Source of the DNA: Halopseudomonas xinjiangensis | GTDB taxonomy: Bacteria; Pseudomonadota; Gammaproteobacteria; Pseudomonadales; Pseudomonadaceae | Reading direction: 5' to 3' | Assembly: GCF_900104945.1 (NCBI RefSeq) | Contig: NZ_LT629736.1 | Coordinates: forward strand, 3,065,001 to 3,129,000 | DNA length: 64,000 bases | Part shown: one piece after another, positions 5,147-13,028 of the stretch | How positions within the stretch are numbered: the stretch's first letter is position 1 | Layout: every line of letters begins with the position of its first letter | Translations under genes and position numbers: made by a program | Notes under the pieces: model-generated | Databases searched by the model: none | The model's input: only the letters and a program-made list of their open reading frames with translations | Told to the model about the DNA's origin: nothing

Positions 5147-5191
5147 ACGGCTCAAGCTGTCATCTATGTGTAACAAAGCCCCCACCCATTC

Positions 5192-5235
5192 GTGCAATCT
5201 ACACGGCTGCATATGGCCATCCATGCAAATTGCAC
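5192..5235. promoter_or_regulatory. paired upstream activator sites, first small-protein gene
   Basis: Two 13-bp dyads, GTGCAATCTACAC (5192-5204) and ATGCAAATTGCAC (5223-5235), are 31 bp apart start to start, close to three helical turns. They lie 65-108 bp upstream of a consensus sigma-54 promoter. An equivalent pair with almost the same spacing precedes the paralogous gene at 6225. The spacing and position fit enhancer sites for a bacterial enhancer-binding protein. The identity of that protein is not known, and none is encoded nearby. Confidence 0.6.
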
Positions 5236-5299
5236 GAGACACGAAAAAACGCCTCACTCTATGTGCCTGATATAAAAGGGAATTTATTCGCCGCTGCGC

Positions 5300-5315
5300 T
5301 GGCACGCAGGTTGCA
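5300..5315 (+). promoter_or_regulatory. sigma-54 (-24/-12) promoter
   Basis: TGGCACGCAGGTTGCA matches the sigma-54 consensus TGGCACG-N4-TTGCA throughout, with GG and GC separated by 10 bases. It lies 62 bases upstream of the first small-protein start codon and downstream of the paired dyads, as expected for an RpoN promoter with upstream enhancers. Confidence 0.85.
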
Positions 5316-5376
5316 ACAGTTAATGTCCGCACGGGCCGAGAGGCTCCGCAACGTTCGCGACACAAGGGAGGTTCAG

Positions 5377-5610
5377 ATGAAGGCTCGCACTGTTCACTAC
5401 ACATGGATGGCATTTTCACTGGCCGCACTCGGCATGCTCGCTATCCAGAACGCCGCTCCAGAACAGTCGTACGAGCCGCAAACTTCTCTGAACTATTCCA
5501 TTCAGCATCAAGCCGGACATACCATCCAGCCGGTCTCGCTGCCGGTTGTGACGCGCCAAGTGAACCAGATCGATACTCAGGCGCACAGCCGCCAAACCTG
5601 GACGTTCTGA
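5377..5610 (+). CDS. unrecognised 77-residue single-span small protein (copy 1)
   Basis: I do not recognise this family. The ATG at 5377 is chosen because AAGGGAGG lies directly upstream and because the paralogue at 6225 begins at the same residue (MKA). Residues ~9-24 (TWMAFSLAALGMLAIQ) form a hydrophobic segment that could be a signal anchor or uncleaved signal peptide. The rest is polar, with the conserved blocks SLNYSI, IQPVSLPVVTRQV and RQTWTF. There are no cysteines. By hand alignment 49 of 77 residues match the second copy; the core IQPVSLPVVTRQV and the C-terminal RQTWTF are invariant. It has its own sigma-54 promoter and enhancer-like sites. Function is unknown; conditional expression of an inner-membrane or periplasmic small protein is inferred. 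Confidence 0.75.
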   Translation: MKARTVHYTWMAFSLAALGMLAIQNAAPEQSYEPQTSLNYSIQHQAGHTIQPVSLPVVTRQVNQIDTQAHSRQTWTF

Positions 5611-6038
5611 CAGCGTCTGCGCCTGATTTGTTCAGCCGCCACCGACCGTATCTGAAAAAATTTCAATAGCCCGTACTAACCGGCCGGACACCTGGCTCGT
5701 CTCGATCCGCTGACTGCCAATCGAGATCGGCTACCCCACCGTGCAATCTGCACGAAGTCCCGCGCACTCCCCCAGCCAGACGCATTTCTGATCGATCAAC
5801 ACTGCCTTCAGCGCCAGACCGCGTTCTAATCGAACCGGCGACTCGTCTCGGCTATTGGCCTAGCACGATAAGCATGGAGCGCTCTGAAAGAGGGAACTAC
5901 CGCGCAGCTGGCGTGTCGCGCCGCGCCGGTGCACCACTATAAGCTGGCCATTCGTAAAGACATTTTGATTAAGCGACTTGGCGGCGGCTCGCTGTTGGAA
6001 GACGTCTCTCCATTGGAGGAAGCTTCCGAAATGCTTCG
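5611..6038. other. non-coding spacer between the two paralogues
   Basis: I see no supportable gene here. The spacer holds one isolated dyad at 5741-5753 with no recognisable sigma-54 promoter at the expected distance. A minus-strand TTG-initiated open frame (5860-6081) crosses the second activator pair and resembles no family, so I do not call it. Confidence 0.5.
5741..5753. promoter_or_regulatory. isolated copy of the GTGCA-N3-TGCAC dyad
   Basis: GTGCAATCTGCAC is the most symmetrical copy of the motif in this region: both 5-base arms pair perfectly around ATC. It has no clear partner 30 bp away and no -24/-12 element at the usual distance. It may be a remnant of a third unit or an extra binding site for the same activator. 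Confidence 0.5.
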
Positions 6039-6081
6039 TGCAGATTACCTGAGCCCAAAAAGCCATTCGTGCAAAATGCAA
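6039..6081. promoter_or_regulatory. paired upstream activator sites, second small-protein gene
   Basis: GTGCAGATTACCT (6039-6051, degenerate right arm) and GTGCAAAATGCAA (6069-6081) are 30 bp apart. The distance from the proximal site to the -24 GG and to the start codon agrees within two bases with the first unit. Conserved geometry despite divergent flanking sequence supports a real regulatory role. Confidence 0.55.
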
Positions 6082-6145
6082 GGACCTCCATTCTCAGTGA
6101 ATTTATAACCTATTGATTTAAATATATTTTATCAATAAAGCACGT

Positions 6146-6161
6146 TGGCACAGCTGTTGCA
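6146..6161 (+). promoter_or_regulatory. sigma-54 (-24/-12) promoter
   Basis: TGGCACAGCTGTTGCA has GG and GC 10 bases apart and matches the consensus except for one position. It lies 63 bases before the ATG at 6225, matching the arrangement of the first copy. The AT-rich stretch just upstream (6100-6140) could aid bending. Confidence 0.85.
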
Positions 6162-6224
6162 ATTACTGTTAGCCGCACGACGCTTGGCGTCACGCAGACA
6201 CGGGCACAGCCAAAGGAGGTTCAG

Positions 6225-6458
6225 ATGAAAGCAAACACTGTTCAATTTACATGGATGGCATTTTCGCTGGCGGCCATCGTTATGCTGGGTCTGCAGGGCA
6301 CCGCAACCAAGCAGGCTTCCGAACAGAGCCCTTCGCTGAACTACTCCATCGAGCGAAATGCTGACCACAGCATTCAACCCGTCTCGCTTCCGGTAGTCAC
6401 CCGTCAGGTCAGCCAGACCGGTCCGCACGCGCAACAGCGCCAAACCTGGACGTTCTGA
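6225..6458 (+). CDS. unrecognised 77-residue single-span small protein (copy 2)
   Basis: This is a paralogue of the gene at 5377 with identical length and 49 of 77 matching residues by hand alignment. The start is supported by AAAGGAGG seven bases before the ATG. The hydrophobic segment is TWMAFSLAAIVMLGLQ; it is followed by a polar C-terminal part with SLNYSIERN, IQPVSLPVVTRQV and the invariant RQTWTF end. The leader sequence around the ribosome-binding site (GGAGGTTCAGATGAA) is shared with copy 1, so the duplication included the 5' untranslated region. The conserved C-terminus suggests a binding or targeting role, but I cannot assign a function. Expression should depend on RpoN. Confidence 0.78.
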   Translation: MKANTVQFTWMAFSLAAIVMLGLQGTATKQASEQSPSLNYSIERNADHSIQPVSLPVVTRQVSQTGPHAQQRQTWTF

Positions 6459-7658: not shown

Positions 7659-7758
7659 GTCATCGTCTACTCTGTAGGCAAGCCGCTTCGGTGGAGATGG
7701 GGCCGGCCAGATCGCCGGTCCTTCCGCCAAAGCATGGATCTTGTTGCCAGGAGACTCG

Positions 7759-8796
7759 ATGAACGCTGGTCTTACCGTCGTAATTGGCGCGTCGGCAGGC
7801 GGAATACCCAGTCTGCTCGATCTGGTCGCCTCACTGCCGCCTGATCTCGACGCCTCGCTCTTCGTCGTTCAGCACGTCTCGCCGAATTACCGCAGCGCTC
7901 TGCCCGAACTCCTGAACAAAAACGGGCCATTTCGGGCTGTGCATCCGACCGATGGTGATCGGATCGCACTGCGTACCATCTACGTCGCCCCGCCGGACCA
8001 CCATATGCTGATCGACGGCGATCAGGTGCTGGTCAAACGCGGACCCAAGGAAAACCGCTTCAGGCCTTCGATCGATGCGCTGTTTCGCTCGGCCGGCTAT
8101 TCGCACGGACAACGGGTGATCGGCATTGTGCTGTCCGGCGCGCTGGACGACGGGACATCGGGGCTGTGGAGCGTCAAGCGTCTCGGCGGTGTGACCGTCG
8201 TGCAGACACCCGCTGAAGCGGAATTCGATGGCATGCCACTTAGCGCACTGGAGCAGGTGGACATCGATCATTGCGTGCCCGCACGGGCGATCGGCAAGCT
8301 TCTCAAGACGCTGGCGGAGCAGCACAGCACGGCCTCCGTGGACATGCCTGAAGACGATCCCGACCGCAGGCGCGCCGGGCTGGAAACCAGGATTGCCGAA
8401 GACGCAGACGCGTTTCAGAAAGGCATCATGGAAGCTGGCAAGCTGACGCCGTTCACCTGCCCATCGTGCCATGGCGTGCTGGTGCAGATAGACGAAGGCA
8501 GTATATCCCGCTACCGCTGCCATACCGGACACGCCTACTCCCGCACCGCCCTGCTCTCGGAAATCGTGCAGAAAGTGGAAGAGACCTACTGGATCGCCAT
8601 GCGTAGCCTGGAAGAAGCGGCCATGCTGCTCGACCATACGGCCGACTCGCTCGGACGTATCGGAAAACCCGAACAAGCTGAGTGGTTTCGAAGCGAAGCC
8701 AAAGCAGCTGAATCCGAATCACGCGAGCTGCGTGACAACCTGTTGCGCCGCCGCCAGTTCAGCGGCAGCAATCTTTTCGGCAGGGAGGGTGGTTGA
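7759..8796 (+). CDS. stand-alone CheB-type methylesterase with C-terminal Cys/His cluster
   Basis: This 345-residue protein lacks the usual CheB receiver domain. The catalytic domain fills residues ~5-190 with Ser12 in GASAGG, His in VVQHVSPNYRSAL and Asp in LSGALDDGTSG, the CheB triad. The CheB fold hydrolyses methylglutamates on chemoreceptors. After a linker, residues ~234-262 contain CPSCHG and RCHTGHAYS, a possible zinc-ribbon. A helical tail rich in charged residues follows. The start at 7759 is chosen for AGGAG at the right distance. No CheA, CheW or receptor gene is nearby. It converges on the CheB-CheR hybrid gene, so the two may share a sensory pathway. This CheB architecture is seen in other proteobacteria outside flagellar chemotaxis loci. 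Confidence 0.85.
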   Translation: MNAGLTVVIGASAGGIPSLLDLVASLPPDLDASLFVVQHVSPNYRSALPELLNKNGPFRAVHPTDGDRIALRTIYVAPPDHHMLIDGDQVLVKRGPKENRFRPSIDALFRSAGYSHGQRVIGIVLSGALDDGTSGLWSVKRLGGVTVVQTPAEAEFDGMPLSALEQVDIDHCVPARAIGKLLKTLAEQHSTASVDMPEDDPDRRRAGLETRIAEDADAFQKGIMEAGKLTPFTCPSCHGVLVQIDEGSISRYRCHTGHAYSRTALLSEIVQKVEETYWIAMRSLEEAAMLLDHTADSLGRIGKPEQAEWFRSEAKAAESESRELRDNLLRRRQFSGSNLFGREGG

Positions 8797-8810
8797 GCTG
8801 CGCAGCCTGA

Positions 8811-11800
8811 TCAGCTGCGCGGCTCCTGCTGCGGCCCATCCAGCTTGAGCTCACGGATGGTTTCGACCAGCGCATCGTAGGTGACCGGCTTGCTCAGGTG
8901 CCGGTCGAAACCGCAGTCCAACGCCTTCTTAGCGTCCTGGCTGCCCCCGTAACCGGTCAGCGCTATCGCAGGCACCCGCGCATAGCCCGGCAGGGCTCGC
9001 AGCGCCTTGATCAGCTGATGACCGTCCATGCCCGGCATGCCGATGTCGGACACGATCAGATCGAAAACCCGCTCCTGGGCCGCGGCAAGCGCTTTCGAGG
9101 CGTCGGTGAACTCCGTCACTTCGGCCCCTTCGGCATCGAGCAGCATGCTCATGACTTCGACCACCTCGGGCGCATCATCGACGAGCAACACCTGCAGGCC
9201 TTGCAGGCGACCGCCTGCTTCGTCTGTCTGGCTCGGCTGCGAATCGCCTTGCTCCTGGGCATACAGCGGTAACCAGACGGTGAAGTGACTGCCCTTGCCA
9301 AGCCCTTCCGAACGCACCTGAACGTCGCCACCATGCGCTTCGGTCAGCTGACGTACCAGTGATAACCCGATGCCCAGTCCGCCCTTGTGCAGCTTCGCAT
9401 GGTGCGTGTCAGCCTGACCAAACAGATCGAATACCTTGTCGAGAAACTCGGCAGAAATGCCCACCCCGGTATCGATCACATCGAGCCGCGCACGGTCGCC
9501 CTCACGCGTCGCCTTGACTCGAACTTCTTCACCGGCGTCGGAGAATTTCAACGCGTTGTTGATCAGGTTCCAGGCGATCTGCTCGACGCGCAGCGGATCG
9601 GCATGCAGCGTCAGCGGCTCATCATCCTCGCTGATCTCCAGTATCAGCGGGTTTTCCTTGGCATCAGCCTCGACTACCTCGCGAATATCGCGCAGCAGTT
9701 TGCCCAGGTCGACGGGGGCCAGATGCAGGTTGAGTTTGCCGGTCACGATGCGTGAAACATCCAGCAGGTCGTCGATGATCCGGGCCTGGCTGCGTACCGC
9801 GTCTCCGATGGTCTTCACCGCCTTGCCCACCACCGGGACACTGCGGGTAACCGGCAAACGAGCAAGCAACTCGGCATTCAGTTGAACCAGGTTCAACGGG
9901 TGCTTGAGCTCATGCGACATCACGGCGAAGAACTCATTCTTCAGCTGCATGGCGGTTTGCGACTGGGCGAGCTGTTCCTGCTGCTCGGCCTGCTCGCGCT
10001 GCCGCTCGGTCAGGTCGCGCGCAATTTTCACGTAACCGCGGAACTCTTCGTCATTGAGGACGTTGACCACGCCACTGCAGTAAAAACGCGTCCCGTCCTT
10101 GCGCACATGCCAGCGCTCGTCCAGCGCGCGACCGTTTGCGCGCGCGCGACGCAGCTCGTCCGCCGGGGCGCCAGCTTCGCGATCCTCTGGTGTGAATATA
10201 CGATCGGTCGGCTTGCCCAGCGACTCTTCACGGGTATAGCCGAAGGTCAATTCGGCGCCCCGGTTCCAGCTGGTCACCAGCCCATCGGGATCCTGCACGA
10301 TGATTGCGTAGTCCTCGGTACTATCGGCCACCAGGCGCATCCGCTCCTCGCCGAGGCGTAGTTCCTGTTCGGCCGCGCGCCGGGCGGTGATGTCGATAAA
10401 GGTCAACACGGCGCCTTCGATATGATCTTCGCTGGTGCGATAAGGCAGCAGCCGCGCCAGATAACAATGACCGTTGCTGGCGGCTACTTCGCGCTCGATC
10501 GGGCGCAGGGACTCGAAGACGCGACCGGCATCGTCGGTCAGACCCGGATAGTCGAGGCGATGGGTAATGTCCATCAACGGGCGACCAGCGTCGACCGACA
10601 ATATGTTGAAGATGTCAGTAGCGCGCGGCGTGAACCATTTGATACGCATGCCGCGATCGACGAACACCGTGGCAATATCGGTCGAGGTGATCAGGTTCTG
10701 CAGGTCGTCGTTGACCTTGTCGGTTTCCTCGACCTTCATTTTCAGTTCATGGTTGACCGTGATTAGCTCTTCATTGATTGATTGCAGCTCTTCTTTGCTG
10801 GTTTCCAGCTCTTCGGTGGCCGAGCGAAGCTCTTCGTTGATCGCCTGTAGCTCTTCGTTGGATGCCTTGAGCTCTTCGGTCGAGACATGCGCCTGCTCGA
10901 CGGTGTGCTGCAATTCGAGCTTGGTGCGCTGCAGCTCTTCTTCGAGCTGCGCGAGCACGCTGTCCTTGGTCTCTTCGTGAGAGTCGGCGGACTCGCGGCT
11001 CATGATGTCTTCGACTTCATCGAACAACACCAGGACGAACTCGCTTCCACTGGCATCGTCACGGAAAGGCCGCGCCACCATGTTCACATAGAACACCCGC
11101 TCGTCCCGTTTCATCCGGACCCGGCGCGCCTCGACACTGCGCCCGGACTGCACCGCCTGGAACATCGCCGTGCGCAACTCCAGGCGCAGCTCCGGCTTGA
11201 CCAGTGTCAACAGGTTATGTGACGGCTCACCACCGACATAGCGCAGAAAGTGGCCGGCGCGGTCGGACATGTGCACGATTTCCGCATCCGGACCGACAAT
11301 CACACTGGGCGGGGCATACTGCTCGAGTACGCGCTGGTGAATCTCGGCGAATGACTGCTTGCGCGCGTCGCGGTTTGACGGTTGCGCAGGGACGTATGAG
11401 CGCTGCGCCGAATCGGCGCCGACTGGCAGCATCGGCACCGAGCGCTTCGGCGTGTGTCCTGCCTTGGCCCGGAAGATGCGGTTCTTCTTGTCTACCGGTG
11501 CGAACAAATTCGCGCAGAGGTCTGCCGATTCCGAACTGCCCAGAAAAAGGTAGCCACCCGGCCGAAGCGCGAAGTGAAACATCTGCAGAATTTCACGCTG
11601 CACATCACGGTCGAGATAGATCAGCAAATTGCGACAGGTGATCAGATCCAGGCGAGAGAATGGCGGGTCTCGCAGCAGGCTGTGCTGGGCGAGCAGCACC
11701 AACTCACGGATCTCCTTCTTCACCGAGTAGCAGCTCTGCTGCTTGACGAAGTATTCCCGTAACCGCACAGGCGGGATGTCGGTGAAGATGGATTCCGGAT

Positions 11801-13028
11801 AGATTCCCGTACGCGCTGTGGCAATGGCGCGATCGTCGATGTCGGTAGCAAACACCTGCAGCTTGGCTGGACTCTGCTCTGTACGCGCCTGTTCAGCCAG
11901 CAACATGGCCAGCGAATACGCTTCCTCGCCAGTCGAGCAGCCTGCGGACCAGGCGCGGATTTCCTGACTATGGCCGGATTCCGAGGCGCCAGCAAAGCTG
12001 AACAGCTGCGGCACGACATCCCGCTCCAGCGCTTCGAAGGCCTCCCTATCGCGGAAGAAATTGGTCACCCCGATGAGCATATCGCCGAGCAGCAGATCGG
12101 TTTCGCGCGGGGTGGCGTGCAGGAAGGTCAGGTAGGATGCGAGATCCGGCTGGGCGTTGACCTGCAAGCGCCGTTCGATCCGTCGCAGCACCGTGGCGCG
12201 CTTGTAGTGGCGGAAGTTGTGACCGGTGCGGCTGAACAGCAGCGCGAGAATATCGCGCAGCGCACGTTCAGCGACCGCCGCCTCTTCTTCGCTACTCGGC
12301 TGGCTGACGTGCGGTGGCGGGTCGAAGTTGCCCGGCAACTGCATGGCGCGGGCGTTGCGCCACAGCTCGATGAGTTTCTGCGGTATATCGGCTACCGGCA
12401 GCACAAGATCGACCATCCCAGTGGCAATGGCACTGCGTGGCATATCGTCGTATTCGGCGTCCATGGGCGCCTGGGCAATGGTTACACCGCCCCGCTCCTT
12501 GATCCGCGACAGCCCCACGGCGCCGTCGCTACCGGTACCAGACAGAACCAGGCAAAAGGATCGCTCGCGATGGGCATCGGCCAGGGTGCGGAAGAACAGG
12601 TCGATCGACGCCCGCTCACCGCGCTTGCGTGCTTCCTTGCGTACCTGCAGATGTCCATCGTTCATCGCCAACTGGTATCCGGGCGCGATGACATACACAT
12701 GGTTTTTTTCCAGCGGGACTGGCTTGGTCACCTGGGTGACCGGCATGCGCGTTGCGCGCTGGATGATCTTGTCGGCGTTGCTGTCGTGGGTCGGTGACAG
12801 ATGCAAAACGATGACAAAAGCCATGCCGTTGTCATTGGGCATGTGCTCGAAGAACCGCAGCAAAGCCTGCAAGCCCCCGGCTGACGCACCAAGGCCAACC
12901 ACCGGAAAAGTGAGATGACTCGGCGTGGTCTTGGTTAGGTTATTGGAGGAATCGCCATGTTCTGCCGAAGCCACTGAAGATTCAGCCATTTTTTCGTTAG
13001 CCCGTGTGTTAAGCGCATCGTCCATCAA
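8811..13028 (-). CDS. CheB-CheR-PAS-histidine kinase-receiver hybrid protein
   Basis: This is a 1405-residue soluble multidomain protein. In order it has a CheB methylesterase (~42-230: GLGASAGG, VLHLSP, LSGTGSDG) and a CheR methyltransferase (~260-510: IGVTNFFRD, WSAGCSTGEEAYSLA). A PAS region (~580-690) follows, then a coiled coil of repeated EEL heptads (~700-780) and two further PAS domains (~790-1020). Then come HisKA with phospho-acceptor His1039 (SHELKHPLN), HATPase (NLINNALKFS, GGLGIGLSL), and a receiver with Asp1328 (VSDIGMPGMDG) and SKPV. Enzymes that add and remove methyl groups fused to a kinase suggest the protein modifies itself or an unknown receptor. The family is widespread in Pseudomonas, but its biochemical outputs are little known. 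No output domain follows the receiver. Confidence 0.92.
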   Translation of the reverse strand: MMDDALNTRANEKMAESSVASAEHGDSSNNLTKTTPSHLTFPVVGLGASAGGLQALLRFFEHMPNDNGMAFVIVLHLSPTHDSNADKIIQRATRMPVTQVTKPVPLEKNHVYVIAPGYQLAMNDGHLQVRKEARKRGERASIDLFFRTLADAHRERSFCLVLSGTGSDGAVGLSRIKERGGVTIAQAPMDAEYDDMPRSAIATGMVDLVLPVADIPQKLIELWRNARAMQLPGNFDPPPHVSQPSSEEEAAVAERALRDILALLFSRTGHNFRHYKRATVLRRIERRLQVNAQPDLASYLTFLHATPRETDLLLGDMLIGVTNFFRDREAFEALERDVVPQLFSFAGASESGHSQEIRAWSAGCSTGEEAYSLAMLLAEQARTEQSPAKLQVFATDIDDRAIATARTGIYPESIFTDIPPVRLREYFVKQQSCYSVKKEIRELVLLAQHSLLRDPPFSRLDLITCRNLLIYLDRDVQREILQMFHFALRPGGYLFLGSSESADLCANLFAPVDKKNRIFRAKAGHTPKRSVPMLPVGADSAQRSYVPAQPSNRDARKQSFAEIHQRVLEQYAPPSVIVGPDAEIVHMSDRAGHFLRYVGGEPSHNLLTLVKPELRLELRTAMFQAVQSGRSVEARRVRMKRDERVFYVNMVARPFRDDASGSEFVLVLFDEVEDIMSRESADSHEETKDSVLAQLEEELQRTKLELQHTVEQAHVSTEELKASNEELQAINEELRSATEELETSKEELQSINEELITVNHELKMKVEETDKVNDDLQNLITSTDIATVFVDRGMRIKWFTPRATDIFNILSVDAGRPLMDITHRLDYPGLTDDAGRVFESLRPIEREVAASNGHCYLARLLPYRTSEDHIEGAVLTFIDITARRAAEQELRLGEERMRLVADSTEDYAIIVQDPDGLVTSWNRGAELTFGYTREESLGKPTDRIFTPEDREAGAPADELRRARANGRALDERWHVRKDGTRFYCSGVVNVLNDEEFRGYVKIARDLTERQREQAEQQEQLAQSQTAMQLKNEFFAVMSHELKHPLNLVQLNAELLARLPVTRSVPVVGKAVKTIGDAVRSQARIIDDLLDVSRIVTGKLNLHLAPVDLGKLLRDIREVVEADAKENPLILEISEDDEPLTLHADPLRVEQIAWNLINNALKFSDAGEEVRVKATREGDRARLDVIDTGVGISAEFLDKVFDLFGQADTHHAKLHKGGLGIGLSLVRQLTEAHGGDVQVRSEGLGKGSHFTVWLPLYAQEQGDSQPSQTDEAGGRLQGLQVLLVDDAPEVVEVMSMLLDAEGAEVTEFTDASKALAAAQERVFDLIVSDIGMPGMDGHQLIKALRALPGYARVPAIALTGYGGSQDAKKALDCGFDRHLSKPVTYDALVETIRELKLDGPQQEPRS

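Follow-up and report, generated by a model that had tools for sequence, protein, structure and literature searches.

In Pseudomonas aeruginosa, the protease AlgW is activated by the C-terminal WVF of the small protein MucE (PMC3819740, PMC8545111). Other tails can act through the same protease, since a truncated pilin (PilA108) ending in DITFTF, or OprF carrying FTF, raises alginate via AlgW (PMC3684759). MucE orthologues are stated to be confined to P. aeruginosa, and the restraint of alginate by KinB runs via AlgW-dependent proteolysis of MucA, according to a title cited in the same paper (PMC3819740). According to a review from 2026, AlgB 'activates AlgW', but no mechanism is given (PMC13001231). 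In the literature that we searched, which left most subscription papers and all preprints outside, no AlgW ligand ending in WVF was reported from other species, and no paper described an AlgW-ligand gene as a target of AlgB. In the DegS-RseA-RpoE system of Escherichia coli, a PDZ-bound C-terminal aromatic-x-Phe peptide switches on the site-1 protease, as is proposed here for AlgW. AlgW and DegS ligands imitate the C-termini of porins. Whereas the E. coli signal is a misassembled porin, the one proposed here would be a dedicated peptide, produced at the command of a sensor kinase.

The locus examined lies in a window of 64,000 nucleotides of Halopseudomonas xinjiangensis DNA, this being the whole stretch analysed. 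Gene 1 (5377-5610, plus strand) and gene 2 (6225-6458, plus strand) each encode a 77-aa protein with one hydrophobic span, ending in SRQTWTF and QRQTWTF, respectively; gene 1 is predicted to encode an AlgW-activating peptide, and gene 2 is its paralogue. The original prediction of two single-span proteins of this size was borne out: both open reading frames are present, their products match at 49 of 77 positions (64% identity), and the two share unchanged RQTWTF and IQPVSLPVVTRQV blocks. The ribosome sites read GGGAGG and AAGGAGG. The dN/dS ratios (NG86) were 0.22 and 0.12 for orthologues and 0.22 for gene 1 versus gene 2, and both proteins are under purifying selection. These genes are real and look functional. 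The list of open reading frames gives gene 1 as a 126-aa frame with a TTG start (5230-5610) that overlaps the promoter; this longer frame is an artefact, because the frame happens to stay open ahead of the true start codon, the ATG at 5377.

Like MucE (PA4033, 89 aa), the window proteins are small, with an N-terminal hydrophobic stretch and an aromatic-x-Phe end (PMC3819740, PMC8545111). However, BLASTP gives no alignment between MucE and either of them, the tail alone being alignable, and by sequence the pair are not MucE orthologues. They also differ from mucE, which is driven by AlgU (PMC3819740), in having sigma-54 promoters, two tandem copies and WTF tails. A search of Pfam and NCBIfam found no family above the curated cut-off for the window pair or its relatives; the idea of a known domain was dropped, and the earlier view that no described family covers these proteins holds for both libraries.

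By sequence, the gene pair was found in 2 of 37 genus genomes, and a scan of GTDB contigs gave no match. In the second genus genome, both genes and both promoters are present, in the same order and with the same neighbours as in the window, which by eye are a flavin-type oxidoreductase and an SDR-type dehydrogenase. A profile built from four rows also gave weak matches elsewhere in the genus (E 0.03-0.8), which we put down to chance. A single-genome oddity was also considered and dropped; although the pair occurs in only 2 of the 37 genomes, its architecture is family-wide, and the window pair represents extra copies of a family-wide type. Further along the window (7741-13028), a CheB-type methylesterase gene on the plus strand faces a 1405-aa minus-strand protein in which CheB, CheR, PAS, histidine kinase and receiver domains are joined (by eye).

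Both genes lie behind sigma-54 promoters. Exact TGGCAC-N5-TTGCA sequences stand at 5300-5315 (unit 1, plus strand) and 6146-6161 (unit 2, plus strand), as had been claimed, and are the only exact matches in the window; the 3.54-Mb genome contains 11 TGGCAC-N5-TTGCW sites, two of them at this pair. The GG and GC dinucleotides of the -24 and -12 elements, their spacing and the consensus flanks by which a sigma-54 promoter is recognised are present at both units, the distance from TGG to ATG being 77 and 79 nt for units 1 and 2, respectively. The second genome's copies also have exact sigma-54 sites.

Upstream of each promoter there are two 17-bp palindromes of the form TCGTGCA-N3-TGCACGA, spaced by 31 bp (three helical turns), and the second ends 62 bp before the -24 element at both units. 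In unit 1, the palindromes lie at 5190-5206 (TCGTGCAATCTACACGG) and 5221-5237 (CCATGCAAATTGCACGA) on the plus strand, and both are predicted AlgB sites; in unit 2, they lie at 6036-6052 (TCGTGCAGATTACCTGA, with a degenerate right half) and 6067-6083 (TCGTGCAAAATGCAAGG), also on the plus strand. The enhancer-promoter interval holds an IHF-like site, recognised by eye from a TGAT block that is conserved in the alignment of the four copies; it is a perfect YAANNNNYTGATW in unit 2 (6106-6118, plus strand) and has one mismatch to this sequence in unit 1 (5260-5272, plus strand). Conservation upstream of the four copies is mainly confined to the palindromes, the sigma-54 hexamers, the IHF-like block and the Shine-Dalgarno sequence. 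Together with the dN/dS values of 0.12-0.22, this agrees with the original prediction that the protein and the regulatory geometry are both under selection. The same prediction correctly described a duplicated sigma-54 unit, but it overlooked the paired enhancer palindromes and the family-wide type to which the unit belongs. Between the units, at 5739-5755, there is a fifth, nearly perfect palindrome (CCGTGCAATCTGCACGA) with neither a partner at 31 bp nor a sigma-54 site; it may be left over from the duplication or be a silencer site.

The palindrome pattern occurs 4 times in the window, where 0.44 matches would be expected, and none of 100 shuffles reached 4. Paired palindromes were found in 27 of the 37 genus genomes, and a reversed control pattern gave zero matches. 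In a sample of the order (n=391), the pair was present in 15 of 18 same-family genomes versus 1 of 373 others, and this lone match was also upstream of an algB-like gene. A chance origin of the paired palindromes was ruled out by these pattern controls together with synteny. At nearly every place examined, a sigma-54 element follows 61-64 bp after the second palindrome.

One class of these paired sites lies directly upstream of a gene for an NtrC-family response regulator with a GAFTGA motif (448-451 aa); a gene for a sensor kinase comes next, its product measuring about 590 aa, and both size and order are those of algB-kinB. The window's genome has such an algB-kinB-like operon, encoding a GAFTGA regulator and a HAMP-PAS kinase. 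Curated NCBIfam holds no model carrying the AlgB or KinB name; we use these names on the strength of the architecture, the order of the genes and the relatives found in named Pseudomonas species. Of 119 family genomes, 82 had a single match to the regulator at a strict cut-off; identity was 73-83% outside the closest relative, and among named AlgB proteins the nearest (86%) belongs to Halopseudomonas. Because the intergenic region between algB and its divergent gene contains the same paired-palindrome array across the Pseudomonadaceae, and both window units carry these algB-type pairs at a fixed distance from the -24 element, AlgB is very probably the activator of both units, to judge from the position of these sites. 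The array is also present in another family of the order (locus L104, genome G104), where an algB-like gene with paired palindromes has a divergent DUF1328-like gene, indicating that the sites are older than the family.

Paired palindromes with a sigma-54 element also precede further gene types in other genomes (loci L087-L098, L105-L124 and L131-L212). These predicted AlgB targets, named by eye, include BON-domain (OsmY-like) proteins, DUF1328-like proteins of 53-55 aa, DUF2383-like proteins of 143-147 aa, and proteins of 92-121 aa of no known type. The BON-domain, DUF1328-like and DUF2383-like targets suggest that AlgB serves more than AlgW ligands.

We surveyed 108 algB loci from about 13 genera, and 65 of them have a protein of 78-99 aa with one N-terminal hydrophobic stretch and a WVF-type end (WVF in 63, otherwise WIF or YVF); this count is a lower bound, because some flanks were short. 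Among 80 named algB loci, 79 have an adjacent small single-span protein of the WVF type, the one exception being a cut contig, and for 72 of these 79 small genes the upstream 400 bp contain both a sigma-54 site and paired sites. The named loci, which include a Halopseudomonas xinjiangensis MAG, P. putida, P. syringae, P. fragi and P. marginalis, are the most query-like and come mostly from one genus group, and so should not be counted as independent of one another. For the algB-divergent promoters of genomes G000 and G001, a small RNA was considered and dropped, as WVF genes of 82-83 aa are found there. In these two genomes (L131 and L132, minus strand), the leader of the WVF gene is unusually long, extending for about 225 nt from the sigma-54 start, and could hold a regulatory RNA element.

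The tails of these proteins were then compared. Both window proteins end in RQTWTF, and the second genome's copies end in QTWTF and PTFTF; among the 472 open reading frames of at least 60 aa in the window, only the gene pair has a [WFY]xF ending. Other genus members have, behind the same promoter architecture, small proteins of different sequence that also end in W-V-F: QQRWVF (81 aa), PQRWVF (70 aa), QQRWVF (82 aa) and PSWVF (75 aa). The window's own genome encodes, divergently from algB and behind a sigma-54 site with a paired enhancer, an 82-aa protein ending in RQSWVF, so that each of the three paired-site promoters found in this genome has a gene for a WxF protein behind it. A window protein and this 82-aa protein share weak similarity (E 0.007), which is consistent with duplication and relocation. 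In an alignment of nine sequences across genera, no residue is invariant except the W and the F in the tail. Small size, an N-terminal hydrophobic helix and a free C-terminal aromatic-x-Phe, which characterise a MucE-like AlgW activator in sequence, are all found in the window proteins.

The W-T-F tail is of the AlgW-ligand type and would be expected to activate AlgW, although no report of a WTF tail as an AlgW activator was found in the literature searched. WTF combines the W of WVF with the T of FTF. AlgW residue E285 limits the size of the ligand at position -1, and threonine is similar to valine in size. Among solved structures, the AlgW of the window's genome is closest to the AlgW-ligand complexes 7CO5, 7CO3 and 7CO2; the ligand-groove residues W281, L282, V284, E285, Y311 and M342 are conserved, and K287 is replaced by Q, a change shared with other pseudomonads that we examined. 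With a strict cut-off, AlgW was detected in 340 of 398 family genomes, and MucA was present in all five genomes tested. In the window's genome, algU-mucA lies beside nadB, and a MucD-like protease is encoded beside mucA.

Taken together, we consider it likely that the window pair are membrane-anchored, MucE-like AlgW ligands under the control of AlgB and sigma-54, with AlgU as the output. When KinB leaves AlgB active, AlgB would occupy the two palindromes of each enhancer and, together with sigma-54 and perhaps with bending by IHF, promote the transcription of both genes. The N-terminal helix is predicted to place the tail in the periplasm, where the free C-terminal W-T-F would dock in the PDZ groove of AlgW. 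AlgW could then cut MucA, thereby freeing AlgU and turning on the envelope-stress programme. The conditional envelope or signalling role proposed in the original prediction stands in general terms, but both the activator, AlgB, and the AlgW-ligand nature of the WxF tail had been missed.

An alternative explanation is that the products are small envelope proteins under AlgB and sigma-54 with a mainly structural or stress-protective job, and that WxF is a turnover or sorting tag for a different protease of the tail-specific or PDZ kind (MucD or Prc), or a blocker of AlgW. The stress-type envelope proteins among the other predicted AlgB targets (BON-domain and DUF1328-like) would fit this, as would the MucD-like protease gene adjoining mucA. 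On the contrary, WVF and FTF tails activate AlgW (PMC3819740, PMC3684759, PMC8545111), and almost nothing but the tail W and F is kept between otherwise unalignable proteins, as would suit a ligand whose function is its tail; we regard this alternative as unlikely. Less probable still, at about the level of an outside chance, is that another NtrC-type activator shares the palindromes and has algB as one of its targets, in which case the proteins may still be AlgW ligands. Pseudomonad genomes contain many NtrC-type regulators, and the binding of AlgB is read from position; however, the palindrome pair accompanies the algB locus in different genera and even in one other family, and sites next to a regulator's own gene, autoregulatory or divergent, are the usual arrangement. 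That aromatic-x-Phe is instead the outer-membrane insertion signal (beta-signal) of a tiny outer-membrane protein, its AlgW-ligand likeness being incidental, is very improbable, because although AlgW and DegS ligands mimic porin C-termini and the motif by itself cannot tell the two apart, a beta barrel could not fit into a 77-residue protein that has one hydrophobic helix, and the tail is kept while the remainder varies freely.

The comparisons suggest a new, family-wide AlgB/sigma-54 wiring of MucE-like AlgW-activating peptides. On balance, we favour the view that, throughout the Pseudomonadaceae, KinB-AlgB transcribes dedicated AlgW ligands via sigma-54 as the missing step to MucA degradation; MucE of P. 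aeruginosa, driven by AlgU, would then be a counterpart with different wiring. If true, an algB-adjacent AlgW-ligand gene under this type of control, as seen in the majority of the pseudomonads examined, would directly answer how AlgB 'activates AlgW', and the envelope-stress protease would be set off by a mimic of a misfolded porin that a sensor kinase makes itself. The analysis also provides a predicted AlgB motif (two TCGTGCA-N3-TGCACGA palindromes with 31 bp spacing, 61-64 bp before -24) with a predicted regulon, and exposes a large class of small proteins absent from HMM libraries.

Genome G521, of the P. aeruginosa group, is arranged differently. Its AlgW is 99% identical to the crystal protein, and its MucE ends in SVRDETRWVF; no sigma-54 or AlgB-type sites were found at its mucE. 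The algB-divergent sigma-54 operon of G521 encodes a DUF1328-like protein of 53 aa, a second protein of 155 aa and no WxF protein, so the KinB-AlgW link there differs or lies elsewhere. In genome G228 (L245, plus strand), a protein of about 100 aa ending in GPRWVF is encoded near and convergent with kinB, with no sigma-54 site recognised at its gene; it is possibly another AlgW ligand, brought to the locus by a different route.
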